Positions 24,900 to 30,979 of a DNA stretch of 41,480 nt are shown piece by piece. Source of the DNA: Aquisalinus sp. GTDB taxonomy: Bacteria; Pseudomonadota; Alphaproteobacteria; Caulobacterales; Parvularculaceae. The stretch covers positions 1-41,480 of the forward strand of contig JALEGJ010000071.1 of NCBI GenBank assembly GCA_022763115.1, written 5' to 3'. Numbering within the stretch: position 1 is the stretch's first letter; each line of letters begins with the position of its first letter. The position numbers were made by a program, and so were the translations under genes. Below the pieces are notes generated by a model. That model was given only the letters and a program-made list of their open reading frames with translations, was not told where the DNA came from and did not search any database.

Positions 24900-25298
24900 A
24901 TGGTTAGAAACATTCTTGCATTGCTGCTTGCCGCGGCATTGATCTTTTTCGGCATACAGAAGTTTGGTGCCGAAAATTTCATCTTCGAGCGCATTGCCGA
25001 GCGCTCCGGCATCGGTCTGTTTGAACCGGGCGTGCGCATTCTGACGGGTATTCTTGAGGTTGCTGCCGGGCTATTGCTTATCCTGCCACGAACGAGAAGT
25101 TATGGCGCCTTGCTCGGCACTGGTCTTGTTGCCGGTGCAATTTTCTTTCACCTGACGCCATGGCTGGGCATCTACACGCCTGCCTCTGCGGGCGGTGAGG
25201 AAAGCATTGGGCTCTTCATGACAGCGCTGGTGGTGTTTGCACTGTCACTGACCAATCTGTTCCTGAACCGCGCAGGGTTGCCGATCATCGGCAGATGA
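24900..25298 (+). CDS. DoxX-like membrane protein
   Basis: A 132-residue protein with four hydrophobic segments: the N-terminal VRNILALLLAAALIFFGIQKF, then ILTGILEVAAGLLLILP, LLGTGLVAGAIFFHL and LFMTALVVFALSLTNLFL. The layout (an early FxxQKF, a central GxLEVxAG, and a late His) fits the DoxX/DUF417-type family of small inner-membrane proteins of poorly known function. The ATG follows CACGAGGGAACGATATC. Its last 14 bases overlap the end of the convergent sulfurtransferase. Confidence 0.75.
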   Translation: MVRNILALLLAAALIFFGIQKFGAENFIFERIAERSGIGLFEPGVRILTGILEVAAGLLLILPRTRSYGALLGTGLVAGAIFFHLTPWLGIYTPASAGGEESIGLFMTALVVFALSLTNLFLNRAGLPIIGR

Positions 25299-26158
25299 AT
25301 GCGTCGGGCAATTGCCCCCATTCCGCCCAGGACCCGTCGTAAAGACGGGTTCTCCGGTGCCCGATTATGGCCAGGCCAAGCGCGAGAATTGCCGCGGTCA
25401 CGCCAGAACCGCAGCTGACGATAACATCCGTGTCCGGCTTTACGCCATGTACGGCAAATAGTTTATCCAGTGCGTCAGCGGGCTTCATGAAACCGTCTTC
25501 GATCAACTGACTGGCGGGCAGGTTTTGCGAGCCGGACATATGACCGCTTTTCAAACCAGGCCGAGGCTCCGGCGCGCGTCCGTAAAATCTGTCAGCAGGG
25601 CGCGCATCAAGAATGATGGCAGACTTGTCTGCGATAATTTGCTGCAACTCACTGCACCCGATGATTTGGGTTTCATCAAATTCAGTCTCAAAGTGCCCGT
25701 CGGATGATATGCCTGAGGGGCCATTCTCAAGCGGCAATCCGGCATCACGCCAGGCTGGCCAGACCGCCATCCAGTAGTTGAACATGCTGCGCGCCCATAA
25801 TACGAAACGTCCACCAGACGCGCGGGGCTGAGAAAACCCCCGTACTGTCATAAATAACAATCCGGTCATGACGCGATATACCAAGCTTTCCTACCGCTGC
25901 CTGAAAAACGCCCGGACTTGGCAGCATGTGTGGCAAGGATGTGTCGGGATCACTAACCGCATCCAGATCAAAAAAGACAGCACCCGGCAGATGTGCTGTG
26001 TCAAAGTCATTGCGGGCACATCTGCTCGCCTCAAGATGCCAAGAAGCATCGATAATTCTCAGCGACGTGTCAGCCAGAGAGTTGAAAAGCTCCTCTGGCT
26101 GCACAAGAAAATTGATGTGCTGACTGCCCGGCACATCAGTCAATTTGTAATGCAGCAT
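25285..26158 (-). pseudogene. 3-mercaptopyruvate sulfurtransferase-like gene with a single-base frameshift
   Basis: Two rhodanese domains are recognisable but lie in different frames. The N-terminal half (RIIDASWHL ... FFDLDAVSDPDTSLPHMLP ... HVQLLDGGL) runs into a TGA at 25745-25747. The C-terminal half continues from PAWRDAGLPLENGP to the active-site loop CGSGVTA, the 3-mercaptopyruvate type. Removing one base from the GG/CC pair at 25759-25760 restores LDGGLPAWRDAGLPL exactly. It is either a recent inactivating insertion or a sequencing error. The start overlaps the end of the thioredoxin-like gene by about 23 bp. Everything else about the gene looks intact. Confidence 0.88.
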
Positions 26159-26534
26159 CAAAAACCTGATGCATTAAATCGACAGACATACCCGCACTGA
26201 CCCGACCTTTCAGTTCGCCATCCACTACAATGACGGCATATCCGGTTTTCACGTCATTCAGCGCCACCTTGTCGGCAACGCCCAGAGCCTCGGCTTTTTC
26301 GGCTTCCACCAAAAGGCTCTCGTAAGTCATATTCGTATAATCCAGTCGGACAATGTCCATCTCGGCTTTGTCATAAGTATTCACCGCTTCTTCCAAAACC
26401 GGATCGAGAATTTTGCAGGCGGAGCACCACTCAGCCCAGTATACCATAGCAGTAGCGTCTGCTGCTCGCGCCAGAGGTGAAGCGGTGACAATCGCCAGTG
26501 CGACAAGGCTTGTGATTATGGTTTTCAGGGGCAT
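26136..26534 (-). CDS. Exported thioredoxin-fold protein with CSAC motif
   Basis: A 132-residue protein with a signal peptide (LVALAIVTASPLARA, cleavage after about residue 24) and a thioredoxin-like active site WCSAC at 36-40, instead of the standard CGPC. It probably acts on disulfides in the periplasm. The C-terminal half (TGYAVIVVDGELKGRVSAG) fits the fold, though the usual cis-proline is not clear. The gene lies immediately upstream of the sulfurtransferase and overlaps it, so the two were likely co-expressed. Confidence 0.8.
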   Translation of the reverse strand: MPLKTIITSLVALAIVTASPLARAADATAMVYWAEWCSACKILDPVLEEAVNTYDKAEMDIVRLDYTNMTYESLLVEAEKAEALGVADKVALNDVKTGYAVIVVDGELKGRVSAGMSVDLMHQVFDAALQID

Positions 26535-26704: not shown

Positions 26705-26941
26705 ATGAAACCGGATATCATGGAAACTCTTGTAAACGACTTGAACGATGAGGCGCTTATTCTCACGCTGCTTGGGTCGATGCAGGATGATGCGATGCTT
26801 CGCCTGATCCGCGCCTGTGTGGAGATGGATCCGGAACATCGCCATGGCATCGCTGCCCTGATTGAAGGGCTGAAAGCCAATTATGAAGAAGTCGTGATTG
26901 AAAGCGTGATGGACAGCAATTCTGTTCTGGAAGTAGCCTGA
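26705..26941 (+). CDS. Small acidic protein, unknown function
   Basis: A 78-residue protein, mostly helical by composition (LNDEALILTLLGSMQDDAMLRLIRACVEMDPEHRHGIAALIEGL). No family was recognised and no strong ribosome binding site precedes the ATG. Codon usage is like that of its neighbours and the frame is well used, so I think it is real. It lies between the divergent thioredoxin gene and the receiver protein. Confidence 0.55.
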   Translation: MKPDIMETLVNDLNDEALILTLLGSMQDDAMLRLIRACVEMDPEHRHGIAALIEGLKANYEEVVIESVMDSNSVLEVA

Positions 26942-26977: not shown

Positions 26978-26985
26978 TTAACCAT
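26978..26985 (+). promoter_or_regulatory. CtrA-like TTAACCAT motif before the receiver gene
   Basis: TTAACCAT occurs 45 bp before the start of the receiver protein gene. The same octamer occurs twice in the ftsZ-type control regions of this window. A single octamer can occur by chance. Confidence 0.35.
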
Positions 26986-27029
26986 ACTTGGCTAGTTTCT
27001 GTCCACAGTTTTTAGGACAAGGGTTTGCG

Positions 27030-28055
27030 ATGCTAGTTCATTATATTGAGGACGATGATCTTGACGCCAGCGTGCTGAAGCGTGCGGCAAAAACCAACGA
27101 CACGCTGGACGTGACCGTTAGTAAATCTCTTGAAGACCTGTCTGATCGGCTGGCCGCAAAGCCTGTAGATTGCATTCTGCTTGATGTTCTGCGCCCTGAA
27201 TCTGTTTCAATAGAGGATGATATTGCCCGGGTGCGTCAGCTTACGGATGCACCGATTGTCTTTATTACCGGTGGCAATGCCAGCGAGCTGCGCTTGCAGG
27301 CGGCACGTATTGGTGCAGATGCCGTGATTGACAAGGAAGATATTTCACCAGCCGTGCTTAAGCAGATTTTCTACAATATAGGTGCCCGTCACCAGGCTGT
27401 AGCGCAACAATATCAGAGTGAACATGCTGTCTTCAATGATGAGACAGACAGTACAGCACAACAGGGCAAGGTGCCTGCTATATCGCTCAGTTATCTGACA
27501 GATGGATTATCTGTCCTGCATGAGATCATGAAGGATAATGGCCATGACCGAACAGCCGACTTCGTTCAGGAGTTGCTGGAGACAAGTGAAGCGATAAGCG
27601 CTTATTTAACCAGTGACCTGTCTGCAACCGCTCAGGTTGCGTTGCATACGATTTTGAGGCGTATGCAGAGCAGGGCTCGTGAAATCGCCCGATCAAAGAA
27701 AATCCGGTTCTCAATGGAATGTGACAAAACCTGGTATCATCAGGCGGGCGACGCAACGCTGTCTCGTCTCGGGTTTCAGCATTTCATCGAAGGGGCCTTG
27801 CGGGCTTGCCCGGCCAACAGCCAGTTGCTGTTTTTTGCGGCTTGTCACGGTGAAGGCGTCAAGCTGATGTTGTATTTTGACAGTCAGTTGCTGCCCGGAC
27901 CATCAATCTTCTTCGATGATAATGCACCGGGTTCTACCCTTCCGAAGGAGGCGCATTCTTCCTTGCGTCTTGGAGCAGCTATCCTGGGGATAAAACCGGA
28001 GAACCTCAAGATCACGACAACGGGCAGCGATCAGATGATCACGGTCATTCTGTAA
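27030..28055 (+). CDS. Receiver-domain protein with degenerate kinase-like C-terminus
   Basis: A 341-residue signalling protein. Residues 1-120 are a receiver domain with acidic residues D8/D9, phospho-acceptor D52 (CILLDVL), T80 (VFITGG) and K102, so phosphorylation looks possible. After a linker, residues about 150-341 have a long helical stretch (LSYLTDGLSVLHEIMKDNG ... AQVALHTILRRM). A segment laid out like a histidine-kinase ATPase domain follows, but with no clear H-box, N-box or G-boxes. This suggests a degenerate kinase or a phosphotransferase-like module of the ChpT kind. I chose the ATG at 27030, preceded by AGGACAAGGG; an upstream TTG at 26988 lies over the CtrA-like motif. It is convergent with the histidine kinase cluster. 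DNA binding is not evident. Confidence 0.75.
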   Translation: MLVHYIEDDDLDASVLKRAAKTNDTLDVTVSKSLEDLSDRLAAKPVDCILLDVLRPESVSIEDDIARVRQLTDAPIVFITGGNASELRLQAARIGADAVIDKEDISPAVLKQIFYNIGARHQAVAQQYQSEHAVFNDETDSTAQQGKVPAISLSYLTDGLSVLHEIMKDNGHDRTADFVQELLETSEAISAYLTSDLSATAQVALHTILRRMQSRAREIARSKKIRFSMECDKTWYHQAGDATLSRLGFQHFIEGALRACPANSQLLFFAACHGEGVKLMLYFDSQLLPGPSIFFDDNAPGSTLPKEAHSSLRLGAAILGIKPENLKITTTGSDQMITVIL

Positions 28056-28108: not shown

Positions 28109-28519
28109 CTAGGTTGCCAGTCTTGCTTCGCCGAGCCAGAATTCTTTCAGTCTCATGACGGTCTGTTTATATCCAACCGGGCTATCTGGTTTAACAAGAT
28201 AGGCATTGGCATGCCGGGCGTAGCAGTCAGCAATATCGGCTTTACTGTCTGAGGTCGACAGCACAATTGCCGGAATGCTCTTTAGCTTCTCGTCTGACTT
28301 CAAGGCTGTCAAAAGCTGACGACCATCCATGCCTGGCATATTCAGATCAAGGATTATGAAGGAGTGACACGGGTCTTGCTCCAACACCTCAAGCGCTTCC
28401 TGGCCGTCACGTGCTGTATTAACAATCAGGTCCTGATCATCCGTATTATCTTCCAGATATTTCTGAACGAACCGCATGTCTATCGGATCATCCTCGACCA
28501 AGAGAATCCTTCTCGGCAT
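28109..28519 (-). CDS. Single-domain response regulator (CheY/Rcp1-like)
   Basis: A 136-residue receiver with no output domain. E9/D10/D11, phospho-acceptor D58 (ILDLNMPGMDG), S88/T89 and K110 are all present. The SKADIADCYARHANAYLVKPDS layout is typical of the Rcp1-like regulators paired with phytochrome-type kinases. It starts 13 bases after the kinase gene ends, so it is probably the kinase's partner, relaying phosphate to another protein. Confidence 0.92.
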   Translation of the reverse strand: MPRRILLVEDDPIDMRFVQKYLEDNTDDQDLIVNTARDGQEALEVLEQDPCHSFIILDLNMPGMDGRQLLTALKSDEKLKSIPAIVLSTSDSKADIADCYARHANAYLVKPDSPVGYKQTVMRLKEFWLGEARLAT

Positions 28520-28532
28520 ATTTCTGCGTCCT

Positions 28533-30845
28533 TTAGTAATATGGCACTTCCAGCACGAAACAACATCCGTCCTGATATTTCGGGTCTATACGCAATGTAC
28601 CTTTGTGTAAGTTAGAGATGCGTCGGCACAAGGCAAGTCCGATGCCCGCGCCTTCAACTTCTTCCTTGTGGTGCAGGCGTTTGAAAGGCTCGAACACCTT
28701 CTCGTGGAACTCCGGGGGGATACCCAGTCCGTTATCCTGAACACGGATTTCGTGCACCAGTTTGGCAGGATTTTGGTTGTGACTGATATGAACGTGCGGG
28801 CGCTCACTTCCGGCATACTTCACAGCATTCGCAAACAGGTTCTGGAATAGCTGGGCGAGCAGGTCTTCAGCACCCAAAACGGTTGGTAAATCTTCGACGG
28901 AAATCTCTGCCTGCGCCTCTTGCAATACCTCCTCAAGAGAGGCTTGCGCCCGCTCTATAACCGCGTTGACATCTACCGGCAGGAGTTGAATTTGCTGCGT
29001 ATCCAAACTGAAAAGATGATAAAGGTTTTTCACCATGGAACGCATGTTGAGGACAGATTTCTCAAGGCTCTCAAGCGTCTCCAGAGCATTTTCAGAGATC
29101 GCAGCTTCCTCGATTTCATCACGCAGCATTTGTGAGAACATGGCTGTCTGACGCAATGGTGCCTGCAGGTCATGTGCCGCGACAAATGCAAATTCCTGCA
29201 AATTCCGATTCAGTTTCTCAAGCTGTTCCTCGCGCTGTTTCAGGGTCGTGATGTCGCTGGATACGACCAGTAATCGGTTGTCGCCTGATGGCACTTCAAG
29301 CGGAATCTTGTCCGTGCTCACCCATCCTTTTTCACCGTGCAGGGGGGTATAGGATTCGACAATATTTCGCAAAGGCTGCTTGCTGTCGATAACGGCCAGA
29401 TCATCTTCATGATACTTGGCGGCCATTTCCGGAAACAGTTGGTAAGTGTCCGTATTTTCCAGATCATTGGGGTCCTCGAACCCCATGGAATGAGCAGCCG
29501 CCTTGTTAGCGTGCAGAATTGTGTTTTTGTCATCCTTATACCAGATGCGCGCTGGCATGTTGTTGAACAAAATTTGTAATTCATCCCTGCTTCGGCGCAG
29601 ATCATCCTGTGATTCAACCAGTTTTATCCGGGCGGTAAGCATATCCGCCATCATGCTGATGATGTCGGTATCACTCTCGGAGAAAGGCTGGTTTTTGGCT
29701 GTCTGACCAAGAAAGCACAGTGTACCGACGGGCTGGCCATCCACCAGCAAAGGCGCACCGATATAAGCCCCAAAGCCCGCCTTTGCCTGCTCGGGATGGC
29801 TCTGTTGAAGATCATGGCTGGCAAGTGGTGACTTGTCCTGGACGACGTTTGCACAAACAGTTTTTTCAAGGGGCAAAGTTGCACCGGCTTTAAGCGGCAG
29901 GTTGTCTGTTGTTTCCAAGATGTGGTAAGTTCCATCCGAAACTTCAGTATAGAGACCGAAAGGGCAGGAAAAGACTTTCTGGCCGATAGCAAGAATGCCC
30001 CGCGCAACCGCAGCGATATCCAGGCTTGTATCCAGGGAAAGTCGGTGCAGTTCCTTGAGCGCCAGTTCATAGCGCTTGGTAGATGTAATCTGCGAGAAGT
30101 TTATTGTTACACCGTCAACACCGGTCTGAACAGCTCTGACCCGGAACCAGTCTTCTACATTATCCTTGTCATAATGGACTTCGAAATCTGCGGGGCGCCC
30201 CGTTGTGGCGACCTGATGATAGATATCATAAAGACCTTCATCCTTGTTGCCGGGAAATTCCTCCAGCAGGGTCTTGCCAAGAAGCTGTTCCGGTGAGCGA
30301 CCTGTAAGCAAAGCGTTAGCTTCATTTGCAGCAACAAAACGATAATCGACAACCTGCTGATTTTCATCACGCACGGGGGTCAGACTAAGAATGCCAGCGT
30401 CAGAGGAGTCAAGGAGTGACTGGTTGAACTCCGCATATCGCTTTATCTGATCTGTATACTCGCGATCAGCATGGCTTTCTGCGCTGAGGCAGATCACGTA
30501 ATTCTTGTCATTGTGCGTTTCTGTCAGTAGGCGGAAGTCGCAGGCGAGAAATGAACCATCCTTGCGCCGGAGGGCCACATTTACACTAGCTGACTTACCA
30601 GCCTTCTCCACAGATGAAGCAAGATCAGGGCTCAGATTGCCAATTGATGTTTGGTTCAGCTCTATGGGCGCAAAGCCCAGTTGTTTGCACAGGAAAGTGT
30701 TCGCGAAAGCGATAGTGCCTGCGCTGGCGTCAAGGACAAGCGCTCCGCTCGCCAGGTTTTCAAGTATGTCAGTTGTATCCAGCGCGGGCAGTCTTGCACC
30801 TTCAGCAAGTGTCTCATGTCTCAGCGCTGCGGTTGATCCATCCAT
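28533..30845 (-). CDS. PAS-PAS-GAF-PAS sensor histidine kinase
   Basis: A 770-residue cytoplasmic kinase with no membrane segments. Sensor order from the N-terminus: two PAS-like regions (about 25-130 and 150-265), a GAF domain (about 285-425, GAYIGAPLLVDGQPVGTLCFLG), and a third PAS (about 440-545). The HisKA helix has His558 in AAHDLQAPLR. The ATPase domain shows the N-box NLFANAVKYAG, then DNGLGIP and GAGIGLAL. The HDLQAPLR H-box is like that of bacteriophytochrome kinases, although no phytochrome module is seen. I chose the ATG at 30845; a TTG at 30875 also lies in frame. The signal is unknown. Confidence 0.92.
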   Translation of the reverse strand: MDGSTAALRHETLAEGARLPALDTTDILENLASGALVLDASAGTIAFANTFLCKQLGFAPIELNQTSIGNLSPDLASSVEKAGKSASVNVALRRKDGSFLACDFRLLTETHNDKNYVICLSAESHADREYTDQIKRYAEFNQSLLDSSDAGILSLTPVRDENQQVVDYRFVAANEANALLTGRSPEQLLGKTLLEEFPGNKDEGLYDIYHQVATTGRPADFEVHYDKDNVEDWFRVRAVQTGVDGVTINFSQITSTKRYELALKELHRLSLDTSLDIAAVARGILAIGQKVFSCPFGLYTEVSDGTYHILETTDNLPLKAGATLPLEKTVCANVVQDKSPLASHDLQQSHPEQAKAGFGAYIGAPLLVDGQPVGTLCFLGQTAKNQPFSESDTDIISMMADMLTARIKLVESQDDLRRSRDELQILFNNMPARIWYKDDKNTILHANKAAAHSMGFEDPNDLENTDTYQLFPEMAAKYHEDDLAVIDSKQPLRNIVESYTPLHGEKGWVSTDKIPLEVPSGDNRLLVVSSDITTLKQREEQLEKLNRNLQEFAFVAAHDLQAPLRQTAMFSQMLRDEIEEAAISENALETLESLEKSVLNMRSMVKNLYHLFSLDTQQIQLLPVDVNAVIERAQASLEEVLQEAQAEISVEDLPTVLGAEDLLAQLFQNLFANAVKYAGSERPHVHISHNQNPAKLVHEIRVQDNGLGIPPEFHEKVFEPFKRLHHKEEVEGAGIGLALCRRISNLHKGTLRIDPKYQDGCCFVLEVPYY

Positions 30846-30979
30846 GAAGTGTCGTTTCTGGGCAAAATTGGGCAATTCAGTCTCGACTATAGGTACTGTT
30901 TGGATGTTTTCACAACCATTAAGGGAAAGTCTCTCATCAGAATCATGTTTTAAGAAAAAAAATTTTCAGTGAGACTAAG

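Follow-up and report, generated by a model that had tools for sequence, protein, structure and literature searches.

The gene at positions 27,030 to 28,055 of the window, the 41,480-nucleotide stretch of Aquisalinus sp. DNA that was analysed, encodes a protein of 341 amino acids. Judged by its sequence and a structural model, this protein is a pseudokinase form of the receiver-controlled histidine kinases (Rec-DHp-CA, LvrB type), since a kinase fold and collinearity with a Rec-histidine kinase are combined with catalytic loss. As the dead kinase core is nevertheless strongly conserved and the gene is usually co-inherited with one particular kinase-CheY pair, the protein probably acts by binding a partner and not by phosphate transfer. 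The parts of the gene are as follows.

27030..28055 (+): receiver-pseudokinase gene, 341 aa, with the stop codon counted in the coordinates (ORF translation)
27030..27392 (+): receiver domain, aa 1-121, with E7/D8, D52 (codon 27183-27185), T80 and K102 (Pfam, alignments)
27393..27479 (+): variable linker, aa 122-150, with a degenerate H-box in which Pro149 is kept and His is replaced by Gln (AF2, dN/dS, alignments)
27480..27617 (+): predicted pseudo-DHp helical hairpin, aa 151-196, shorter than in kinases (AF2 helices, dN/dS, alignment)
27618..28052 (+): predicted pseudo-CA (Bergerat-like) domain, aa 197-341, with the N-box Asn replaced by Gly255 and the G-boxes and ATP lid lost (AF2, fold search, alignment)

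Receiver domain and kinase-like core

The receiver was matched by Pfam PF00072 over residues 4-103 (E=9.9e-8). In an alignment of 13 homologues the phosphorylation residues E7, D8, D52 and K102 were invariant and T80 nearly so. The receiver had been predicted to be complete (D8/D9, D52, T80, K102) and the Pfam match and alignments bear this out, with residue 9 varying between D, N and S across homologues. Asp12, four residues past the acidic pair and located in alpha1, is rare in receivers of the window's genome. Among the 30 receivers compared, an Asp of this type was found only in the window receiver and its CheY-like partner. It is retained in 12 of 13 homologues and is present in the partner CheYs too. 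The alpha1 region of receivers helps to set kinase specificity. Comparison of the receivers gave no special overall similarity between the window receiver and the partner CheY, the alpha1 Asp being their sole shared trait.

In Pfam the C-terminal 201 aa alone had no match, and the equivalent segments of 12 members yielded nothing beyond stray matches (E>0.1). Sequence searches of the PDB returned receivers only, plus a DivL match below significance. Receiver domains swamped the results when the full-length model was used for a fold search, and the C-terminus was therefore modelled and searched separately. The resulting AF2 model (pLDDT 88.2, pTM 0.82) consists of two helices followed by an alpha/beta sandwich. 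Kinases of the LvrB type have an unbroken signalling helix that runs from receiver alpha5 into the DHp. In the AF2 model of the full protein a helix spans residues 107-131, and pLDDT is below 50 for residues 123-149. Foldseek returned 247 matches to the C-terminal model in the PDB at E<=0.001. DivL (4q20, 1.6e-9) was first, followed by phytochrome, RetS and many other histidine kinase cores, and DHp-CA kinase cores were matched along the full length of the model. All rows of the VIA structure comparison were histidine kinase cores (Z 11-13), including DivL (Z 12.7 over 190 residues, rmsd 5.5) and CusS (Z 13.1 over 183 residues, rmsd 6.0). The family profile was also matched to the linked kinases (E=1.1e-4, 144 columns) with the H-box Pro region in register. 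The original prediction of a histidine kinase-like core was upheld by the model, the fold search and the profile comparisons; neither an unrelated fold nor a match to a characterised family was obtained. The suggested dimerisation of this core is probably possible and was counted as supported.

Catalytic loss, selection and origin of the family

Catalytic residues were compared in an alignment of 12 family members and nine true kinases. The H-box His column in the members was occupied by Q, S, E, E, E, E, E, E, E, M, D and A, while the H-box Pro was conserved. The N-box Asn was replaced by Gly in nearly all members. The G1 box, G2 box and ATP lid were absent, and DHp helix 2 was about 11 residues shorter than in the true kinases. 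The H-box and ATP-binding motifs are lost, as had been predicted. His164, followed by Glu165, is confined to the window protein and the two orthologues closest to it, and His164 occurs in no other member.

Values of dN/dS were computed between three close orthologues. The pseudo-DHp, at 0.013, was the most constrained part measured and the receiver had a value of 0.036, both from the single pair that was unsaturated at synonymous sites. The pseudo-CA domain was at about 0.08 and the linker at 0.2-0.3. The domains of the Rec-pseudokinase are under purifying selection, the pseudo-DHp strongly so, and the C-terminal part is not decaying.

Orthologues with 89% and 81% identity are present in two species of the window's genus, one of them an Aquisalinus MAG. 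Homologues with roughly 30-35% identity occur in Ponticaulis and other Hyphomonadaceae, and more distant members were found in L041 and G124. The gene was found in 11 of 398 genomes of the order (E<1e-45), and among 385 genomes sampled across the class no clear member was found except in the window's own genome. The reading frame is open in all members. No description of the family was found in the open-licence literature. The Aquisalinus MAG also carries a second Rec-pseudokinase (L032, 6001-7044) that is 38% identical and not beside any kinase. Weak profile matches in other genomes of the same family were rejected as members, being ordinary histidine kinases with an intact H-box. The closest true kinase to the pseudokinase CA domain by profile is a 301-aa kinase (L070, L072 and similar, in f1 g2 genomes), which has an intact H-box and a degenerate N-box (CALRAC/CALKAC).

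The full-length family profile was collinear with the intact Rec-HisKA-HATPase kinase L123 (hhalign Prob 93.5, E=2.4e-7, 253 columns), and the alignment ran from the receiver through the DHp and into the CA domain. On this collinear match, the origin of the family by degeneration of a Rec-histidine kinase, no particular one being singled out, is well supported. The window's genome has two intact LvrB-like Rec-HisKA-HATPase kinases, L123 (G000:C152:3105-4199) and L118 (G000:C28:2516-3619). No match of L118 to the full-length family profile was obtained (E=0.17).

Partner genes and promoter region

The features next to the gene are as follows.

26978..26985 (+): CtrA half-site TTAACCAT, 52 bases upstream of the ATG (identical in orthologues L058 and L057)
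28109..28519 (-): CheY-like single-domain response regulator, 136 aa, convergent with the gene (Pfam 3.5e-20, co-occurrence)
28533..30875 (-): PAS-GAF-PAS-HisKA-HATPase kinase with H-box HDLQAPLRQ (Pfam, H-box alignment)

The kinase gene lies upstream of the CheY-like gene and is co-directional with it. The coordinates and Pfam matches agree with the predicted full kinase/CheY pair convergent with the Rec-pseudokinase gene, and the pair is also statistically associated with it. The window kinase has full-length orthologues (E<1e-120) in nine of 398 genomes. The co-occurrence search that had been proposed indicated that the gene is co-inherited with the kinase-CheY pair, being present in eight of these nine pair-bearing genomes (Fisher p=1e-13; p=3e-4 at genus level; both values ignore shared ancestry). 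In the window's genus all three genes are present in three species and none in three. G173 has the kinase and no Rec-pseudokinase gene, and G336 has the Rec-pseudokinase gene and no window-type kinase. The window-type kinase-CheY pair is unlinked to the Rec-pseudokinase gene in Ponticaulis and G124, so the association is more than neighbourhood.

Most members adjoin a kinase of the HDxxxPxR type. A short kinase runs divergently from the Rec-pseudokinase gene in Ponticaulis, and two further lineages have a CheB/CheR-type kinase together with a CheY gene ahead of it. The linked kinase differs in G059 and G167 (CheB/CheR-type), and the G124 member has no adjoining kinase. The H-box HDxxxPxR...F was present in 10 of 10 linked kinases, across three gene arrangements; this type makes up two of the approximately 22 recognisable H-boxes of the window's genome. 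Beside the unlinked kinase-CheY pair of Ponticaulis-type genomes, G124 and G173 lies a third gene, which encodes a receiver alone and has an ISKDD-like motif (L196 8036-8479, L197 7984-8388, L198 8083-8490, L199 5061-5477). It is possibly a further component of the circuit. This third receiver (Rec3) of the Ponticaulis-type operons was considered as a close relative of the window receiver and rejected, as it was not specially close by comparison.

A CtrA-like sequence had been noted before the gene start, and it was confirmed as TTAACCAT with an identical copy in two orthologues. The site was absent upstream of members outside the window's genus. The same sequence occurs at five places in the window, with about 1% expected in the 88-base gap. 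Because it recurs, a single site is weak alone and only its conservation gives it weight. The paired CtrA site TTAACCAT-N5-7-TTAACC was not found in the window's genome. The Ponticaulis homologues adjoin fliJ-fliI and ctrA. From these sequence features the gene is probably under CtrA control in the window's genus, and a link to CtrA is plausible.

The heptamer CTGTGGA/TCCACAG recurs ahead of the gene, in Ponticaulis at a distance of up to 160 bases (L033-L039) and in the window's genus on the opposite strand (about 27001-27010). It may be a promoter element or due to chance. A 73-aa ORF lies directly upstream of the gene (26720-26941, +) and is present in both orthologous loci (92% and 66%). 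It matched no family above the cut-off, the best being PF23130 IcmW (E=0.03), and was not found near the Ponticaulis homologues. A rhodanese-type sulfurtransferase on the minus strand (25285-26161) is split into the overlapping frames 25745-26161 and 25285-25884. In the neighbouring species G005 the rhodanese-type gene is intact (290 aa, L057 13366-14235). The split may reflect a frameshift in the genome or an assembly error.

Proposed mechanism and comparison with known systems

The favoured reading, to which we give about even odds, is a receiver-controlled pseudokinase whose receiver is phosphorylated by the linked HDxxxPxR kinase and whose dead core acts by binding. The kinase would phosphorylate both the receiver of the Rec-pseudokinase and the CheY-like protein. 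By analogy with LvrB, receiver phosphorylation would change the pseudo-DHp dimer, and the dead core would work through binding and not chemistry. The face of the pseudo-DHp could dock the CheY-like regulator, as DivL does with DivK~P. The dead core could also heterodimerise with the kinase and modulate it, as RetS does with GacS. In the window's genus, CtrA control would connect the module with the CtrA regulon (motility/cell cycle).

Several other readings were weighed. The receiver could be a phosphate sink or competitor that drains kinase phosphate from the CheY-like protein, with the C-terminus just dimerising or stabilising it. The receiver is complete, the alpha1 Asp it has in common with the CheY-like partner fits one kinase for both, and the gene co-occurs with the kinase-CheY pair. 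However, a conserved 190-aa kinase core is superfluous for a pure sink, and the strongest constraint measured falls on the pseudo-DHp; this reading is considered unlikely. The same constraint bears on the idea of a protein that functions through its receiver alone, its C-terminal half being a relic in decay. Although the catalytic motifs are gone and the family is small and patchy, purifying selection on both the DHp-like and CA-like parts, the confident fold and the frame kept open in all members make a relic very improbable. A partner switch that frees a sigma or other factor upon phosphorylation would follow the plan of LvrC of Leptospira, a Rec joined to an RsbW-like anti-sigma fold of the Bergerat-like kind (PMC13269768). 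Output through binding is likely in any case, but the two-helix DHp ahead of the CA fold indicates a kinase core, the collinear full-length match to a Rec-histidine kinase and the fold matches also count against such a switch, and the listed neighbours included no sigma or anti-sigma gene. It is regarded as decidedly unlikely.

An unusual histidine kinase that is still active through another His, for example H164, and an altered ATP site would fit the H164-E165 pair of the window protein and two orthologues. H164 is missing from all other members, however, and the N-box Asn, G-boxes and ATP lid are lost in the family; this reading is hardly credible. Relay of phosphate, perhaps as a ChpT-like shuttle, had been part of the original prediction. 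ChpT has the general plan seen here of a two-helix DHp and a degenerate CA domain, and the setting is alphaproteobacterial and possibly CtrA-linked. The H-box His is, however, in no member (12 aligned), with H164 restricted as described. The C-terminus gave no Pfam match to ChpT (PF10090), and the family did not match 16 ChpTs of relatives (hhalign E=0.08, Prob 0.7). The linked kinases did match these 16 proteins (E=7e-7), in whose alignment C19, H20 and D21 are invariant. A bona fide chpT is located on another contig of the window's genome, close to ctrA. As the phosphoacceptor His is lost, the profile comparison was negative and a true chpT is elsewhere, the ChpT-like shuttle was rejected, and a ChpT/Spo0B-like phosphotransferase or shuttle is rated highly improbable. 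At the chpT locus (L053, G000:C160:45285-46923) a small receiver gene (C160:45789-46121) was observed between chpT and ctrA.

To our knowledge, few pseudo-histidine kinases have been well studied. The receiver-controlled pseudokinase may represent an undescribed family of phosphorylation-switchable pseudo-histidine kinases (Rec-pseudoHK). Together with a CheY-like protein and a PAS/GAF kinase of the HDxxxPxR type it would make up a CtrA-fed three-protein circuit, the dead core reading or tuning the phosphorylation of the other two. This wider proposal is tentative and is held with somewhat less than even confidence. In DivL a dead kinase core has been turned into a sensor of another regulator's phosphorylation (PMC4211667). 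Here the dead core is fused to a receiver that can be phosphorylated, the proteins are small and soluble, and their partner kinase and CheY have been identified by statistics; the role of a non-catalytic kinase fold is therefore directly testable. In Hyphomonadaceae-like bacteria the Rec-pseudoHK could be a further arm of the CtrA network.

RetS, a membrane-bound hybrid kinase whose receivers are C-terminal, resembles the window protein in its histidine kinase-like core, which was a high-ranking fold match (PDB 6dk7; 7n0e with GacS) and binds another kinase, GacS (PDB 7n0e title). ChpT likewise has a DHp and a degenerate CA domain without ATP-binding motifs, but it keeps a phosphorylatable His, has no receiver and has no profile similarity to the family. 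Osp and FixT are single-domain regulators that inhibit a kinase (PMC9430884). Osp is similar in being a receiver-type protein with a CtrA-site promoter in a CtrA setting, but it consists of a receiver only and does not have the residues required for phosphorylation (PMC9430884). DivL, the top Foldseek match, is a Caulobacter pseudo-histidine kinase (PDB 4q20) whose core binds the single-domain regulator DivK~P (PMC4211667). Both proteins have a DHp-CA core without the catalytic His. DivL has N-terminal PAS domains and an H-box Tyr, whereas the window protein has a receiver and Gln (Q/S/E/D/A/M among members). A separate DivL-like kinase (L111) is present in the window's genome. LvrB of Leptospira (PDB 8vc9) is the prototype of the receiver-controlled histidine kinases with the order Rec-DHp-CA, and phosphorylation of its Rec alters the DHp dimer (PMC13269768). 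The family members differ from the LvrB type in the loss of the phosphoacceptor His and ATP motifs, in the shorter DHp helices and in the deleted lid. They share with it the Rec-DHp-CA order, a length of about 340-385 aa and a phosphorylatable receiver.
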